Below, one piece after another: positions 6,686 through 43,193 of a DNA stretch of 64,000 nucleotides (positions within the stretch are counted from its first letter, which is position 1; each line of letters begins with the position of its first letter). Source of the stretch: Prochlorococcus sp. AG-402-I21 (lineage in GTDB: Bacteria; Cyanobacteriota; Cyanobacteriia; PCC-6307; Cyanobiaceae); assembly GCA_003216955.1 (NCBI GenBank), contig QCHZ01000001.1, positions 124,001-188,000 on the forward strand. Direction: 5' to 3'. Under the pieces are notes generated by a model. It was not told where the DNA came from and did no database searches. It saw only the letters and a list, made by a program, of their open reading frames with translations. Both the position numbers and the translations under genes were made by a program.

Positions 6686-6844
6686 TCATGAAAGTCGTAT
6701 TTGATTTTCAATCGAATAAGCATTACTTGTGCAGGCCTCATTGCCTGTAACTTGAGAAACAGCAATAACGAGAAGGCTTAGAGAACCAACTGCTAAAGAA
6801 ATTGTTCTAATAGCACTGGCTTTCTTAGAGATTTTCTTGCTCAT
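6686..6844 (-). CDS. small membrane protein, 52 aa
   Basis: I chose ATG at 6844 (MSKKISKKASAIRT) instead of the upstream in-frame ATG at 6904 because the peptide then has a clean basic N-terminus and one helix at about 15-32. The short C-terminal tail has a Cys. Unknown family. It lies upstream of arsR on the same strand but with a 151-base gap. Confidence 0.5.
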   Translation of the reverse strand: MSKKISKKASAIRTISLAVGSLSLLVIAVSQVTGNEACTSNAYSIENQIRLS

Positions 6845-6994
6845 ATCAAAAAATCTTGATGTAATAAGAATATGATTACTATCCAAGCATAAAAGAGTAT
6901 CCATTGATACCTAGTAGAAATAATTACCTAAAAATTATTAGAACAATTCTGAATAGAGCTAAATCAATTGGAAACTAGATTTAAATTAATTGCT

Positions 6995-7327
6995 TTATTT
7001 ACAAGCTTGCGATGGTTGCTGGGAGCTTTCTTTTAACAGTTCAATCCAATCTTGCAAAGAATTTAATGAGTCAATATTTAATTGGTAATAAACCCATCTA
7101 CCAGTTTGCCTATCGGTAATCAAACCTGCGTCTTTTAAAACTTTTAAATGAAAAGATATTTTCGATTGCGCCAATCCAATTTCATTAATCAAATCACAAA
7201 CACATCGCTCTCCGCCTGAAAGAGACTCAATGATTTGCAATCGCAATGGATCAGATAAAGCTTTTAGCAATTTCCTGGCCATTGCATTTTCAAGAACTAC
7301 TTCGTTCTTTATCGCTGTGGCCATCAC
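6995..7327 (-). CDS. arsR: ArsR/SmtB-family arsenic-responsive repressor
   Basis: 110 aa winged-helix repressor. The ERCVCDL motif places Cys42 and Cys44 in the CxC arsenite site of classical ArsR (ELCVCDL), and the recognition helix reads GLAQSKISFHLKVLKDAGLI with the usual YYQL wing end. A third Cys is in the C-terminal tail. It is divergent from gap-arsJ and shares a 135-base promoter with an ATCAA-N6-TTGAT operator, so autoregulation plus control of gap-arsJ is likely. Confidence 0.95.
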   Translation of the reverse strand: MMATAIKNEVVLENAMARKLLKALSDPLRLQIIESLSGGERCVCDLINEIGLAQSKISFHLKVLKDAGLITDRQTGRWVYYQLNIDSLNSLQDWIELLKESSQQPSQACK

Positions 7328-7395
7328 AGAATGAAAAATATAATCCCATGATAAAACAAACTTCAGAAAAGGCTTGCATCGACAAACCTCTTTAC

Positions 7396-7411
7396 ATCAA
7401 TATAAATTGAT
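7396..7411. promoter_or_regulatory. ArsR operator between arsR and gap
   Basis: ATCAATATAAATTGAT fits the ATCAA-N6-TTGAT dyad recognised by cyanobacterial ArsR/SmtB-type repressors. It is 69 bases from the arsR start and 52 bases from the gap start, positioned to block both divergent promoters. A longer dyad of the same type is at 11752-11775. Confidence 0.75.
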
Positions 7412-7462
7412 ATGAGGAATCCAGTCCTTCATTGATTAACTCAATTAACTCAATTACAGGTT

Positions 7463-8488
7463 ATGCGAATCGGTATTAATGGTTTCGGTCGAATAGGACG
7501 ACTTGCTCTAAGAGCGCTCTGGGGTAGAGAAAATATCGAGATTACACATATCAACGATCCATTGGGTGATGCAAAGGGAGCTGCGCATTTACTTGAATTT
7601 GATTCAGTACATGGTCGTTGGAACAAAGCAATAAGCAACGACCAAAACAACCTGAGTATTGAAAGTCAACCAATATCTTTTTCTCAAGAAAGTGATTTCA
7701 CAAAAGTGCCATGGAAGGAAAAAGGAATAGAACTAATTCTCGAATGTTCAGGAAAATTCAAAACCCCTCAAACATTAAATCCATATTTCGATACTCTTGG
7801 AATGAAAAGAGTTGTCGTTGCATGTCCTGTTAAAGGTGAAATACAGGGAGAGGATGCTCTAAATATCGTCTACGGTATTAATCATGATTTATATGAGCCC
7901 AATAAACATCGCTTAGTAACAGCAGCATCCTGCACAACTAATTGCTTAGCTCCAGTCGTGAAGGTCGTTAATCAAACCTTTGGTATTAAGCATGGAAGTA
8001 TCACTACACTCCATGACCTAACAAATACTCAGGTAATCGTTGATTCATTTAAGTCAGATTTAAGAAGAGCCAGAAGCGGATCACAAAGCTTAATTCCAAC
8101 AACGACAGGATCAGCAAAAGCGATAGGGATGATATTCCCTGAATTACAAGGAAAATTAAATGGTCATGCAGTTCGAGTTCCTCTCCTCAATGGATCTTTA
8201 ACTGATGCTGTATTTGAATTAGAGAAAGAGGTCACACAAGAAGAAGTCAATCATGTGTTCAAAAAAGCTTCCGAAGAAGAACTAAAAGGAATACTTGGTT
8301 ACGAAGAAAAACCACTTGTCTCAATTGATTATGTCAATGACTCAAGGAGTTCAATTATTGATGCGCCCTCAACCATGGTGATCAACAAAACTCAACTGAA
8401 AGTCTATATTTGGTATGACAATGAATGGGGTTATAGCTGTCGAATGGCAGATCTCGTTTGCCATGTCATAAATCTCGAAAAAGGCTAA
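7463..8488 (+). CDS. gap: type I glyceraldehyde-3-phosphate dehydrogenase, arsenate-linked
   Basis: 341 aa with the Rossmann motif [10 protein letters not shown] (5-14) and the catalytic [11 protein letters not shown] with Cys157. The usual HSYT(G/N)DQ segment is altered to HDLTNTQ around 183. In ars operons this GAPDH adds arsenate to glyceraldehyde-3-phosphate, giving 1-arseno-3-phosphoglycerate, which ArsJ exports. Ten bases separate it from arsJ, and it is divergent from arsR. It is therefore probably the resistance copy and not the main Calvin-cycle enzyme. Confidence 0.93.
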
Positions 8489-8498
8489 AAATAAAAAC

Positions 8499-9761
8499 AT
8501 GCGATTAACTGCATTGCAACAATATGGAATAGTAACGACCAACTATTGGGCATTCACACTGACAGATGGTGCTCTCAGGATGCTAGTGATTTTTCACTTT
8601 CATAGCCTTGGATATACAACATTAGAAATTGCATTCTTATTCCTTTTTTATGAGTTCTTTGGCGTCATCACTAATCTTTATGGAGGTTGGATAGGAGCTA
8701 GATATGGATTACGTCTAACACTATGGGTCGGGACTCTTTTACAAATCGGCGCCTTATTGATGTTGATACCAGTTTCGAGTGGTTGGTCGAAACTTTTGAG
8801 TGTCATTTATGTCATGGTTGCTCAAGCGATTAGTGGTATAGCAAAAGATCTCAATAAGATGAGTGCTAAAAGTGCCATCAAAACTGTCGTTCCAGACTCC
8901 TCAGAAGAAGATGGTGGAAATAATCAATTATTTAAATGGGTAGCCATCTTAACTGGTTCAAAAAATGCACTCAAAGGAGTTGGCTTCTTTCTTGGTGGAC
9001 TTTTGCTTACAAGTTTTGGATTTAATAAAGCAGTTGAATTAATGGCTATCGGTTTAGGTCTGTCATTTCTAATGACATTAATTTTGCCTGGAGATATTGG
9101 AAAGATGAAAAGCAAACCCATCTTTAAAGACTTATTTTCTAAATCTCAAGGGATCAATGTCCTCTCTTTTGCACGCTTTTTTCTCTTTGGGGCAAGAGAC
9201 GTATGGTTCGTCGTTGCACTACCTGTTTTTCTTGAAACGTATCTAAATTGGAATTTTTCTGAAATTGGAGCTTTTCTAGGATTGTGGGTTATTGGGTATG
9301 GTTTTATTCAAGCGTTTGCGCCGTCTTTAAGAAATTTATGGGGAAATAAAACAAGCCCAGGAGTTTCTTCTGTTCAATTCTGGAGCGCTGCCTTAACTGC
9401 AATACCAGCACTAATAGCAATAGCACTCTGGCGGCAAAGCAATCCAGAAATAGCAATTACAGCTGGATTGATATTATTTGGCTTCATTTTTGCAATGAAC
9501 TCATCAATACATTCATATATGGTTCTTGCTTATACGGACAAGGAAAACGTGAGCCTAAACGTAGGCTTCTATTACATGGCAAATGCGGCAGGAAGACTGA
9601 TTGGTACGCTCTTATCTGGTGTCCTATTTATGCTTGGGAGCAATGCCTCTATAGGAATGCAACTATGTTTATGGTGTTCAAGCCTATTTGTATTTATCTC
9701 ATTGTTGACTAGCTTACGACTACCACCAGTTTCAAGTGCTATAGCTATTGAAAAAGCCTAA
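8499..9761 (+). CDS. arsJ: organoarsenical efflux MFS permease ArsJ
   Basis: 420 aa, about 11-12 hydrophobic segments. It has the ArsJ-typical N-terminus (NYWAFTLTDGALRML), FLFYEFFG near 46-54 and the highly conserved cytoplasmic segment QAISGIAKDLNKMSAKSA around residue 110-127, with TGSKNALKGVGFF just after. The family exports 1-arseno-3-phosphoglycerate, which hydrolyses outside to arsenate. The operon position directly after gap supports the assignment over a generic MFS. Confidence 0.93.
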   Translation: MRLTALQQYGIVTTNYWAFTLTDGALRMLVIFHFHSLGYTTLEIAFLFLFYEFFGVITNLYGGWIGARYGLRLTLWVGTLLQIGALLMLIPVSSGWSKLLSVIYVMVAQAISGIAKDLNKMSAKSAIKTVVPDSSEEDGGNNQLFKWVAILTGSKNALKGVGFFLGGLLLTSFGFNKAVELMAIGLGLSFLMTLILPGDIGKMKSKPIFKDLFSKSQGINVLSFARFFLFGARDVWFVVALPVFLETYLNWNFSEIGAFLGLWVIGYGFIQAFAPSLRNLWGNKTSPGVSSVQFWSAALTAIPALIAIALWRQSNPEIAITAGLILFGFIFAMNSSIHSYMVLAYTDKENVSLNVGFYYMANAAGRLIGTLLSGVLFMLGSNASIGMQLCLWCSSLFVFISLLTSLRLPPVSSAIAIEKA

Positions 9762-9806
9762 GATCCAATATCAATTAAAAAAATTAAATATCAAGGGAAA
9801 GAAGGG

Positions 9807-10004
9807 CTACTGAACCTCTGATTCTCTGTCATATTCAAGTCCAACTTCATTCATCCAAGCTGATTTCGTTTTACAGTTTTTACCATGCTCGGCTAGATGT
9901 AATCCCTCAATCGAAATAAATAAAACTAGTAGTGAAACTGGAATCCACCAGATGGGTGATCCAACAATTTCCTTCCAATTATTCATTGATTCTTTTTTTT
10001 TCAT
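9807..10004 (-). CDS. single-pass membrane protein, 65 aa
   Basis: A helix at about 17-33 (PIWWIPVSLLVLFISIEG) is followed by HLAEHGKNCKTKSAW and an acidic end. The start may be ATG at 10004 or the in-frame ATG at 9986 (MNNWKE). It lies between convergent arsJ and pstS and is transcribed like pstS. Unknown family. Confidence 0.55.
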   Translation of the reverse strand: MKKKESMNNWKEIVGSPIWWIPVSLLVLFISIEGLHLAEHGKNCKTKSAWMNEVGLEYDRESEVQ

Positions 10005-10066
10005 ATTAAAGAGCTTTTTTTAAGCTTAAGTTAAGAAGTTACTAGCAAGCAAAAAAAGACAATAAA

Positions 10067-10091
10067 AAAAGGAGGCTATTGCCTCCTTTTT
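10067..10091 (-). terminator. pstS terminator
   Basis: AAAGGAGGC-TATT-GCCTCCTTT has A and T tracts on both sides. It sits about 20 bases downstream of the pstS stop on the minus strand and could terminate from either direction. Confidence 0.8.
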
Positions 10092-10109
10092 AATTTATAA
10101 GGAATTAAT

Positions 10110-11081
10110 TCACTTACCAATACGCTTTACAGCAGCGCGAGACTTGGAAAGAATATCACCTTTTAGAGGAACAAAGCCAAGAGAAGGAGCCTTAGCCTGG
10201 GCTTTATCACTTAGCAAGTAGTTAAGTGATTCTTGGACGGCTTTAGTATTTCTACCATTACCAGTCTCGTAAGCAAGAATCCATGTAAGCGTAGCGATTG
10301 GATATGCACCCTTAGCTTTTGGGTTAGGATTTTTACCAGCTAAATTTTTATCTAGTTTTATACCATTAAGAGCTTTTGCTCCTGCTTCTGTTGTTGGCTT
10401 TAAAAACTCACCAGATAAATTTTGAAGAGCGGCAGGTTTAATTACACCTCTAATATATGACTGGTTTACATAACCAATTGCACCAGGAGTATTACGAATT
10501 ACGCCTGCAACACCTGCGTTACCTTTTCCACCAACACCAGCAGGCCAAGCAATAGATTTACCTGTTCCTAAATTCCATGTCTTAGAGAAAGCTTGCATAG
10601 AGTTTGAAAAAGCCTTGGTTGTACCGGAGCCATCAGAGCGATGTGCCCATGTCATTTTTCCTGCAGGACAACCAACTTCTTTCCAATTTGAGATTTTACC
10701 CATAGCAACGCGAACAGCTTGCTCTTGAGTAAGTTTAAGATCACAGTCATAGTTGTATCCAAAGGCGATTGTTCCACCAACCATTGGGATTTGGACTAAT
10801 CCACGAGTAACTTTTGCAATATCTGTTGCTTTCATTGGATCATCAGAAGCACCGAAGTTAACGGTTTCATCAATGAAAGCTTTACGGCCAGAACCTGAAC
10901 CAACAGCTTGATAGTTGACTCGAGGTCCACCTTCTTTAGCTAAATCAGAAAACCAACGAGTGTAGATTTTAGCGGGAAAGGATGCACCTGCTCCACTAAG
11001 ACGACTAGCTGCATTTGCGGACATGCCTGCGCCCACTGCAAGCAAAGAAGTAAAGATGAGGGCCTTCTTAGCGAAGGTCAT
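10110..11081 (-). CDS. pstS: phosphate ABC transporter substrate-binding protein
   Basis: 323 aa with a signal peptide (cleavage after SANA, residue about 24). It has the PstS signatures LSGAGASFPAKIYTRWF, GSGSGRKAFI, FGASDDPM and HRSDGSGTT (phosphate-contacting Ser/Asp/Arg residues), and IGYVNQSY. It binds phosphate in the periplasm for PstCAB, which is not encoded here. Three TTAA repeats at about 11-base spacing upstream resemble a Pho box. Its location beside the arsenic operon fits a phosphate-scarcity/arsenate-stress unit. Confidence 0.95.
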   Translation of the reverse strand: MTFAKKALIFTSLLAVGAGMSANAASRLSGAGASFPAKIYTRWFSDLAKEGGPRVNYQAVGSGSGRKAFIDETVNFGASDDPMKATDIAKVTRGLVQIPMVGGTIAFGYNYDCDLKLTQEQAVRVAMGKISNWKEVGCPAGKMTWAHRSDGSGTTKAFSNSMQAFSKTWNLGTGKSIAWPAGVGGKGNAGVAGVIRNTPGAIGYVNQSYIRGVIKPAALQNLSGEFLKPTTEAGAKALNGIKLDKNLAGKNPNPKAKGAYPIATLTWILAYETGNGRNTKAVQESLNYLLSDKAQAKAPSLGFVPLKGDILSKSRAAVKRIGK

Positions 11082-11184
11082 GAGGCCTAATAAAAAACTT
11101 GCTCTTATTTCATAGCATCTAATTGATCAAAAAATTTGTCATTAGAAATCAAATTAGCAATTCATCAATTTTTCTTGATCTATT

Positions 11185-11214
11185 CTTAACCTTTCGATTA
11201 ACCAAGATTAATTT
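11185..11214. promoter_or_regulatory. candidate Pho box
   Basis: CTTAACC, ATTAACC and ATTAATT occur in the same direction with TTAA cores 12 and 10 bases apart, resembling tandem (C/T)TTAA(C/T)(C/T) PhoB/SphR boxes. It lies 104 bases upstream of the pstS start and about 180 bases before the porin fragment, so it could serve either. Confidence 0.55.
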
Positions 11215-11392
11215 ACTTTTTAAAAAAGAATGAACTTAAAATAACGCGAATTTTCAAGGAAATAATTTAAATAAAACTTTGCCAACATTTAATCATTTGT
11301 TTACGTATCTTTAGTCAGGTCTAAATGTACATCCTATAAATTTCATTTTGGATCTCATATCCAATTTTACTTTTATCCTGTGTGAGGACACG

Positions 11393-11613
11393 ATGAAATT
11401 ATTTAAGAGCTTATTAATAGCTCCAGCAGCATTCGGCCTTATGGCGCCAATAGCGGTAAATGCTGATACAGCATTTAGTCCTACTTCAAAATTAGGAAGC
11501 AGCGTTAATTTCACTATTGGTTCTAATACAGACTCAGCAGATGGAGACGAGCTTCACTCAACATATGAGATGAAGTTTAAATCAACTACTAGCTTTACTG
11601 GTGAAGACAAACT
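11393..11613 (+). pseudogene. 5' fragment of a porin gene (SLH/OprB-type)
   Basis: It begins MKLFKSLLIAPAAFGLMAPIA with a signal peptide ending in VNA, the usual start of picocyanobacterial outer-membrane porins (several hundred residues long). Homology-like sequence runs about 74 codons to the TTSFTGEDKL segment, then the frame enters a response-regulator gene fragment read antisense. The porin is thus truncated by a rearrangement. Given the position next to pstS, it was probably a phosphate-type porin (inference). Confidence 0.75.
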
Positions 11614-11729
11614 TCGACTGCATAACCTTCTGCAACAAGAGCTTCACGGAGTGTTTCACGAATGCTTTTATCGTCTTCAACAATTAAAATTCTTGACTTG
11701 GATGGATTCTTAGACAAGTGATCAACCAC
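11610..11729 (-). pseudogene. 5' fragment of a PhoB-like response regulator
   Basis: From a possible GTG at 11729 the minus strand reads SKNPSKSRILIVEDDKSIRE followed by TLREALVAEGYAVEV, the first beta strand, the acidic DD pair and helix 1 of an OmpR/PhoB-type receiver. After about 40 residues it runs into the antisense porin fragment and stops at 11595. Receivers are about 120 aa, so it lacks the phospho-Asp and the whole output domain. Adjacent to pstS, the lost gene was probably phoB (inference). Confidence 0.8.
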
Positions 11730-11751
11730 AAGGACGAACAAGCTTTGTATT

Positions 11752-11775
11752 ACATATCAATTATAGTTGATATGT
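11752..11775. promoter_or_regulatory. second, perfect ArsR-type operator
   Basis: ACATATCAA-N6-TTGATATGT is a dyad with 9-bp perfect arms and contains the ATCAA-N6-TTGAT core seen at 7396. It lies 23 bases from the start of the response-regulator fragment and 30 bases before the gene at 11805. The original target was probably one of these or a lost gene. Confidence 0.7.
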
Positions 11776-11804: not shown

Positions 11805-11948
11805 ATGCAAATTAATTTTCATAAGAAATTAATTAGAACAGTGGTTTTTACTTGCTCAATTATTTTTTGCATGGGTTATTATTTCGATCAATATCCAAAC
11901 CATGAAATCCGGAAACAGATATCAACAGATGGATTATTAATGGATTAA
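11805..11948 (+). CDS. membrane-anchored hypothetical peptide, 47 aa
   Basis: ATG at 11805, TAA at 11946. A helix at about 10-26 (IRTVVFTCSIIFCMGYYF) is followed by a short polar tail. It starts 30 bases after the ArsR-type dyad, so it may be arsenic-regulated. Family not recognised. Confidence 0.45.
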   Translation: MQINFHKKLIRTVVFTCSIIFCMGYYFDQYPNHEIRKQISTDGLLMD

Positions 11949-12044: not shown

Positions 12045-12275
12045 ATGAGATGGCCACCGAATGCAGCTTGGACCTCAGCCGTAAAAAGAGAAGGTTATCG
12101 ACACTTTGAAGTTAAAAGCTATGGAGGCAAAAAAGATGAACGGTGGGTAGAACTATTTCCAGTTAACAACAACGAAATTCTTATAAAAGTTCCATGGTCG
12201 GAATTAAAAACATACTCAAAGTGGACGAGTGGATGGCTTCAGTTGCCAAAAGATGAAGACTGCGATGGAAACTAA
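12045..12275 (+). CDS. TIGR02450 family tryptophan-rich protein
   Basis: 76 aa. It contains the family pattern of spaced Trp residues and WTSAVKREGYRHFEVKSYGG near the start, then RWVELFPV and VPWSELKTYSKWTSGWLQLP. TIGR02450 proteins are short, uncharacterised and widespread in cyanobacteria and proteobacteria. The gene ends 29 bases before repeat copy 2. Confidence 0.8.
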   Translation: MRWPPNAAWTSAVKREGYRHFEVKSYGGKKDERWVELFPVNNNEILIKVPWSELKTYSKWTSGWLQLPKDEDCDGN

Positions 12276-12304: not shown

Positions 12305-12958
12305 AGTAATTATTCTTACACAGCTGATACTGGTTTGTTCTTATATTTTTGAAACTTCTCAGGACAACCTTCTTTTTATACTGAGCTTTAGAAGGTTGTT
12401 TCTTTGAATAAAAAACGTCAGTGCTCCCCCCCAGAAGCCAATCAATTGATGACCAATTCAATTGACTGCCTGACGTACATTTATCCTAAATTTTCCTTTT
12501 CTTCAATGCTTCTGTAGGACCGTACGTATTAGGTTGGGAAACCGTAGAAATATCAAATCTCTTTTAAATAGACATTTAAAAAGGGCCCTAGGGGGCCCTT
12601 TTTCTTTACCGATTCTTTGGAAGCTTCTGGATATTGGTGGCCTGGGGCCAAGTGACTAGTAGAAAGGCTTTTGTACTCCGTTAGGGCACCTAAACGATGC
12701 AGAGGAGTTTCGACTGAATTGACGCACCTATATCATTGATCCTTGTCGCATCAGACGAATAGCCTACTTATTCATTGAGAATGTTGGAGCAGGAACCAGA
12801 ATTCAGTTCGCTTCTCTTAAATACTCAGGTGGAGTGTCGACCATTAATGGTGCCTCTGAGCTCAACAAACGTATCTTTGCTCTATTCGCACCTCAACGCA
12901 ATCAGCCTTAATGCCCATTGCATTTCCACTTAACCTGTTCAAAAATAGTAAGTTTGGG
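12305..12958. repeat. 654-bp direct repeat, copy 2
   Basis: Apparently identical to 934-1587 (constant offset 11,371). It carries the same two hairpins (12365-12398; 12583-12604) and the same gene remnant (12723-12911). The unique DNA on each side of the two copies differs immediately at the boundaries, so the unit is precise. Confidence 0.93.
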
Positions 12959-42897: not shown

Positions 42898-43193
42898 TGC
42901 TCTTTCTTGTAGCGCTCAAGACCCCGTTCCATGTCTCGAGTCTTACTGCAGCTTGTTATTTAGCTGAACGTGTATCAAAAATAACAGAAATTATCTTTAA
43001 ACGATGTTCCTCATGATACATAAAACAGTGAATTATGTAGTGTTAACCGAAATAGTTGTATTTCTTACTAAAAAGGCCCCTTACATCACTAAGAAAGTTA
43101 ATTATTTATCCTCTTTTTTTTTAAACTAAACCAACCTTCCCCTTTTACCCTCTTCTTGCAAAAGTTATAAAAGCACAGAAAAAGGATCCTAAT

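Follow-up and report, generated by a model that had tools for sequence, protein, structure and literature searches.

The perfect inverted repeat at positions 11752-11775 of the window (the whole 64,000-nucleotide stretch of Prochlorococcus DNA that was analyzed) raises the question of why an operator of the arsenic-responsive ArsR type should lie between a broken phosphate-regulator gene and a small gene for a 47-aa protein. The letters of the window read ACATATCAATTATAGTTGATATGT at this place, with two perfectly matching inverted arms of 9 nt around a 6-nt spacer (ACATATCAA-N6-TTGATATGT), as the initial annotation had described. Its inner core is identical to the reported ArsR consensus ATCAA-N6-TTGAT (PMC4585019 and PMC9137774, in the portions available), and one of these two sources reports the core from DNase I footprinting of Synechocystis ArsR. 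The neighboring phoB-like fragment is indeed a broken phoB of which about 30 PhoB residues remain. The description of the site as far from the ars genes did not hold, as arsJ ends 2.0 kb from it and the core between arsR and gap is 4.3 kb away. The features of this ars-pst-pho island are as follows.

6686-6844, minus strand: 52-aa small ORF (MSKKISKKASA...) downstream of arsR, 88-98% identity in relatives; 72 aa if a more upstream ATG is used
6845-6860, no strand: ArsR core before the 52-aa ORF, adjoining its ATG; relatives have one too
6995-7327, minus strand: arsR, by family-model match, with a CVCDL motif
7396-7411, no strand: ArsR core between arsR and gap-arsJ
7463-8488, plus strand: ArsJ-associated glyceraldehyde-3-phosphate dehydrogenase, gap (NF033735, 555.7 bits)
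8499-9761, plus strand: arsJ, organoarsenical efflux MFS transporter (NF033734, 574.8 bits)
10110-11081, minus strand: pstS, phosphate-binding protein (TIGR00975, 229 bits), the only PstS found in the genome
11164-11179, no strand: ArsR core ATCAATTTTTCTTGAT on the upstream side of pstS, at 83 to 98 nt from its ATG
11393-11595, plus strand: porin-like N-terminal remnant abutting the phoB remnant, matching porin-like N-termini beside phoB in relatives and weakly matching the NCBIfam iron-uptake porin (E=0.036)
11595-11741, minus strand: phoB remnant, in which 11607-11696 aligns with PhoB residues 2-31 (90%)
11752-11775, no strand: the dyad, with its ArsR core at 11756-11771, ending 29 nt before the 47-aa ORF
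11805-11948, plus strand: 47-aa small protein (sm47; MQINFHKKL...STDGLLMD) that has a single hydrophobic stretch
12045-12275, plus strand: Trp-rich DUF2389 protein, a syntenic neighbor (family-model match and synteny)

No match to phoR was found in the window, and no PhoB match at E<=1e-70 in the genome to which it belongs (assembly 96% complete).

The dyad by itself proves little, because this AT-rich window contains several perfect 9+9 dyads with a 6-nt spacer (9, against 0.9 expected), and such forms are thus no rarity here. Allowing up to three mismatches, the dyad word occurs once in the window, and 100 dinucleotide shuffles gave a mean of 0.04 occurrences (four shuffles had one). The form ATATCAA-N6-TTGATAT is found without mismatch at one place in the 1,729,312-base assembly, the dyad itself, and with one mismatch at five more, two of which are in the window at the start of the small ORF after arsR (6843-6862) and in the arsR/gap promoter (7394-7413). 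Scans of the surroundings found no convincing sigma-70 match and no terminator-like site near the dyad. The weight of the argument rests on the specific core and its conservation rather than on the dyad form.

The core occurs at 28 places in the assembly, and four of these are clustered within 4.9 kb (window 6845-11771, with starts at 6845, 7396, 11164, and 11756), for which the Poisson probability is about 1.6e-6, or 7e-5 when the arsR site is left out. Two cores are therefore additional to the dyad and the arsR operator, namely those before the 52-aa ORF and before pstS, and neither is mentioned in the initial annotation. Among the 18 cores that were inspected, 11 are inside ORFs, 4 form the window cluster, 1 lies 110 bp upstream of a lipoprotein-like gene, and 2 are ambiguous. 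Within the genome, the ArsR with the CVCDL arsenite motif is the sole HTH_5 protein detected, and a single regulator would therefore serve all four sites of the window; likewise, one ArsR-type regulator is counted in MED4 in the accessible part of the MED4 sRNA paper. The core is located within 200 nt upstream of arsR at 28 of 30 loci of the same genus (the exceptions being L080 and L081), and the CVCD arsenite motif is present in ArsR at all 30 loci, as well as at all 30 loci fetched from a second Prochlorococcus genus. The site has two features of a cyanobacterial ArsR operator: the core, together with an ArsR in the same genome that carries the Cys motif and has the core in its own promoter region.

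Conservation of the core upstream of phoB and pstS

The synteny comparison with relatives that retain an intact phoB, which the initial annotation had proposed, was run in both genera. Intact phoB was recognized by match ranking in 6 of the 41 genomes of the window's genus, and all six genes have an ArsR core upstream, starting about 75-79 nt before the PhoB receiver domain. The second genus (GC 0.30-0.33) presumably fits the high-light clades of Prochlorococcus. Here, 68 phoB loci were tested and 4 were dropped for too little upstream sequence; a perfect core precedes phoB in 62 of the remaining 64, at 80-82 nt, and the other two have one mismatch, although the 62/64 does not equal 64 independent events because the genomes are phylogenetically related. 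Across 12 stretches of this genus (233,562 bases), our tally assigned 29 cores to ars promoters (16), phoB (11), and places elsewhere (2).

The informative fact is, on this comparison, the conservation of the core across three diverged phoB promoter classes. When one class is compared with another, identical bases number 6-9 of 20 and 9-14 of 30 in the flanks and 1-5 of 6 in the spacer, yet the core is retained and ends 59-65 nt from the receiver domain. G033 and G020 belong to one class and are alike throughout. A common upstream region without the 47-aa ORF is found in five of the six genomes with intact phoB, and in G033 this region is formed by the last part of a Crp-type regulator gene. 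The sixth, G032, combines phoB, the dyad, and the 47-aa ORF, and is a less decayed form of the window's locus. At this locus (L035, 10729-12077) phoB is intact and phoR is truncated with an internal stop, so the kinase gene broke first there and the response regulator gene outlasted it. Because the core precedes intact phoB in both genera and because G032 links that arrangement to the window, the comparison gives good support to an ArsR-type operator in the phoB promoter; the initial annotation would have been contradicted by a dyad missing before phoB in every relative and left unbound by ArsR, and the first of these two conditions does not hold.

As a control, a paralogous response-regulator gene, which we take to be RpaB-like, has the core upstream in 0 of 21 cases. 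The core is also found in 0 of 23 usable phoB loci of GC-rich relatives (3 of 26 were dropped for shifted offsets), a weak control since a chance core is unlikely at GC 0.50-0.65. A wide PhoB scan, of which 80 loci were kept, yielded a single locus from Prochlorococcus (AG-424-E20) in this set.

The core also stands before pstS in the window's genus, where 26 of 32 genes have it, 12 with one copy and 14 with two. These cores begin 68-99 nt before the start, and paired cores are 18-19 nt apart. The six pstS genes without it are those of G009 and G033, both having phoB, and of G024, G008, G023, and G030. In the second genus, 0 of 12 pstS genes have the core. A single PstS was found in the window's genome; of the 30 genomes of its genus with a match, 27 likewise have one. 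A phage origin of the pstS site was rejected, as the core is upstream of 0 of 4 cyanophage pstS genes (of 61 matching records), and so was the idea that tandem cores straddle a pstS TATAAT, which lies on the other strand.

Two further arrangements were observed near pstS. G016 has an extra ArsR core (L135, 2312-2327 within 1655-2327) just upstream of a divergent Crp-type regulator gene, and this further regulator may therefore belong to the network. G020 has two ars-pst clusters (L043/L130 and L134) with two ArsR types, 68% and 97% identical to that of the window, and phoB was seen beside one of the two clusters.

Present state of the site beside the 47-aa gene

In the window, the site may still act on the 47-aa gene, or it may be a relic. 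Eight genomes were found that have the gene without an intact phoB (G000, G001, G003, G004, G011, G016, G034, and G060), and the core is kept in six of them. It is lost in G034 together with the 47-aa ATG, and half of it is left in G060, where the ORF is intact.

It is quite possible that the site now has no target after the decay of phoB and survives for want of time, a reading compatible with an ancestral role. The reduction of phoB to a stub is in line with this, as are the loss in G034, the half-site in G060, and the variation of the outer dyad bases in G003, G001, and G016. Pointing the other way, a deletion in G001 reached the operator but spared the core, and in five aligned genomes 0 of 10 half-site columns are variable, whereas the spacer has 2 of 6 and the 47-aa leader 7 of 29; yet the phoB-side flank has only 4 variable columns of 87, and the invariance of the half-sites is therefore too little to prove constraint.

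Somewhat more tentatively, the operator could control the 47-aa protein here, which would then be an arsenic-regulated small protein beside a phosphate transporter gene. The distance from the start of ATATCAA to the 47-aa ATG is a constant 51 bp in all four genomes with a mismatch-free site beside the gene, and the core is kept in seven of the nine genomes found with the gene when intact and decayed phoB are taken together. The ORF is moderately constrained (pN/pS 0.42 over 8 genomes), and similar frames of 46-47 aa with an alike C terminus were seen by eye at the same place in other genomes; comparison of the protein with family models gave no convincing match. Control of this gene fits less well with the halved site beside the intact ORF of G060, with the disappearance of site and ATG in G034, and with the presence of the core in phoB promoters that have no 47-aa gene.

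It is improbable that the dyad at phoB and pstS serves another regulator, for example PhoB or a protein of the Crp/Fnr type, and that the likeness to the ars operator is secondary. Such a regulator would find some encouragement in the Crp-type gene that ends just upstream of phoB in G033, and in six genomes of the second genus without detected ArsR that keep the phoB core; these cannot decide the matter because all are drafts at most 92% complete, and another binding protein would fit. The Fnr box is TTGAT-N4-ATCAA, and the order of the half-sites in the dyad is that of the reported ArsR site and not that of this box. The identical core also precedes arsR itself. The Pho box bound by PhoB is made of 8-bp direct repeats with 3-bp linkers, as described in the source material available; the two halves of the dyad are inverted. 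That the dyad arose as a palindrome by chance or marks a hairpin in a transcript is very unlikely indeed: nine perfect 9+6+9 dyads in one window make such forms unremarkable, but the shuffle expectation for this word, the conservation of core and position in diverged promoters, and the lack of any terminator-like site found nearby led us to reject both.

A predicted link between arsenic and phosphate uptake

We consider that the dyad is probably an ArsR operator of the phoB promoter left behind after the decay of phoB, and that ArsR would gate arsR/gap-arsJ, phoB, and pstS and be released by arsenite. The identity, position, and conservation of the operator and the decay of the gene are read from the sequence, and from these we infer the binding and repression by ArsR, its release by arsenite, and whatever influence the site may still have on the 47-aa gene. 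The predicted targets of ArsR, through ATCAA-N6-TTGAT, are arsR/gap-arsJ and phoB, joined by pstS in the window's genus, and ArsR would repress them all. Imported arsenate would give rise to arsenite inside the cell, ArsR would leave its operators, and arsenic load would thereby be coupled to phosphate uptake, a coupling expected because arsenate entry rises under phosphate scarcity. In the window's genome, with phoB now a stub and phoR not found beside it, the operator would be stranded between the stub and the 47-aa gene, and the single pstS keeps its putative ArsR site intact.

Arsenate is a phosphate analogue, and the arsenate-to-phosphate ratio rises on phosphate depletion (PMC6426599, available portion); arsenite could therefore be a cue. 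The same portion calls Prochlorococcus the commonest phytoplankton in P-poor oceans and says that arsenate there can be more abundant than phosphate. The presence of the core at the former phoB promoter and before phosphate genes of many relatives suggests that arsenic may tell these cells of phosphate scarcity. More speculatively, in Prochlorococcus lineages that lost PhoBR, ArsR might have taken over the single pstS, so that phosphate scarcity would be read via arsenite, while in lineages where phoB survives ArsR would gate the top of the Pho regulon; we regard this broader scheme as doubtful.

The operator of the Synechocystis ars operon is ATCAA-N6-TTGAT (Lopez-Maury 2003, as cited in the available part of PMC4585019). 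Its core is identical to that of the window, and it has two repeats, as do some promoters here; the target in Synechocystis is the ars operon, whereas in Prochlorococcus phoB and pstS bear the site too. A closer functional parallel is offered by Agrobacterium tumefaciens 5A, in which ArsR1 represses phoB1 and pstS1 and EMSA places its sites between them (Kang 2012, 2016, as cited in PMC7965956). According to the accessible text of PMC7965956, arsenite raises phoB1 9-15-fold and pstS1 9-14-fold, and a separate pho/pst2 system is unresponsive to it. In both organisms, ArsR-type sites are located at phoB and pstS within an ars/pho island, the Prochlorococcus side being known from sequence. The two differ in phylum and in motif, as the ArsR1 motifs are unlike the Prochlorococcus core. 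In addition, Agrobacterium has the arsenic-independent pho/pst2, while in the window's genome one PstS was found, phoB is a stub, and a second system is seemingly absent.

In some cyanobacteria, arsR is beside pstS, and co-regulation by arsenic was proposed from gene order (PMC4284471). The portion of that paper available mentions no phoB operators. Our search of the literature on ArsR with Prochlorococcus, phoB, pstS, or arsenate found, in the text accessible, no report that phoB or pstS of Prochlorococcus carries ArsR sites. If conserved at both genes, a site of the ArsR type offers a direct and testable answer to how phosphate uptake is regulated without PhoBR. If it holds, a toxic analogue becomes part of nutrient sensing, and where pstS and phoB transcripts serve to mark phosphate stress, part of their signal may reflect arsenic.

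Direct repeats flanking the island

The ars-pst-pho island is flanked by two identical 654-bp direct repeats (934-1587 and 12305-12958), the only two copies in the genome, which had no match in Rfam. When both copies were compared within each of 14 relatives, 12 pairs were 99.4-100% identical, and those of G033 and G060 were 97.4% and 95.0% identical, respectively. Identity to the window's copy is about 86-97%. The copies are closer within than between genomes and therefore show signs of concerted evolution. G027 (L412; 87% complete; no ArsR or PstS detected) has exactly one repeat copy with both outer flanks contiguous and thus an empty site. In the island-less G014 (L414; 54% complete), the two flanks likewise adjoin a single copy. 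The repeats could recombine and so delete the island or swap it for another. Elsewhere in the window, a Glutamine-II riboswitch aptamer was observed on the minus strand at 42915-42973.
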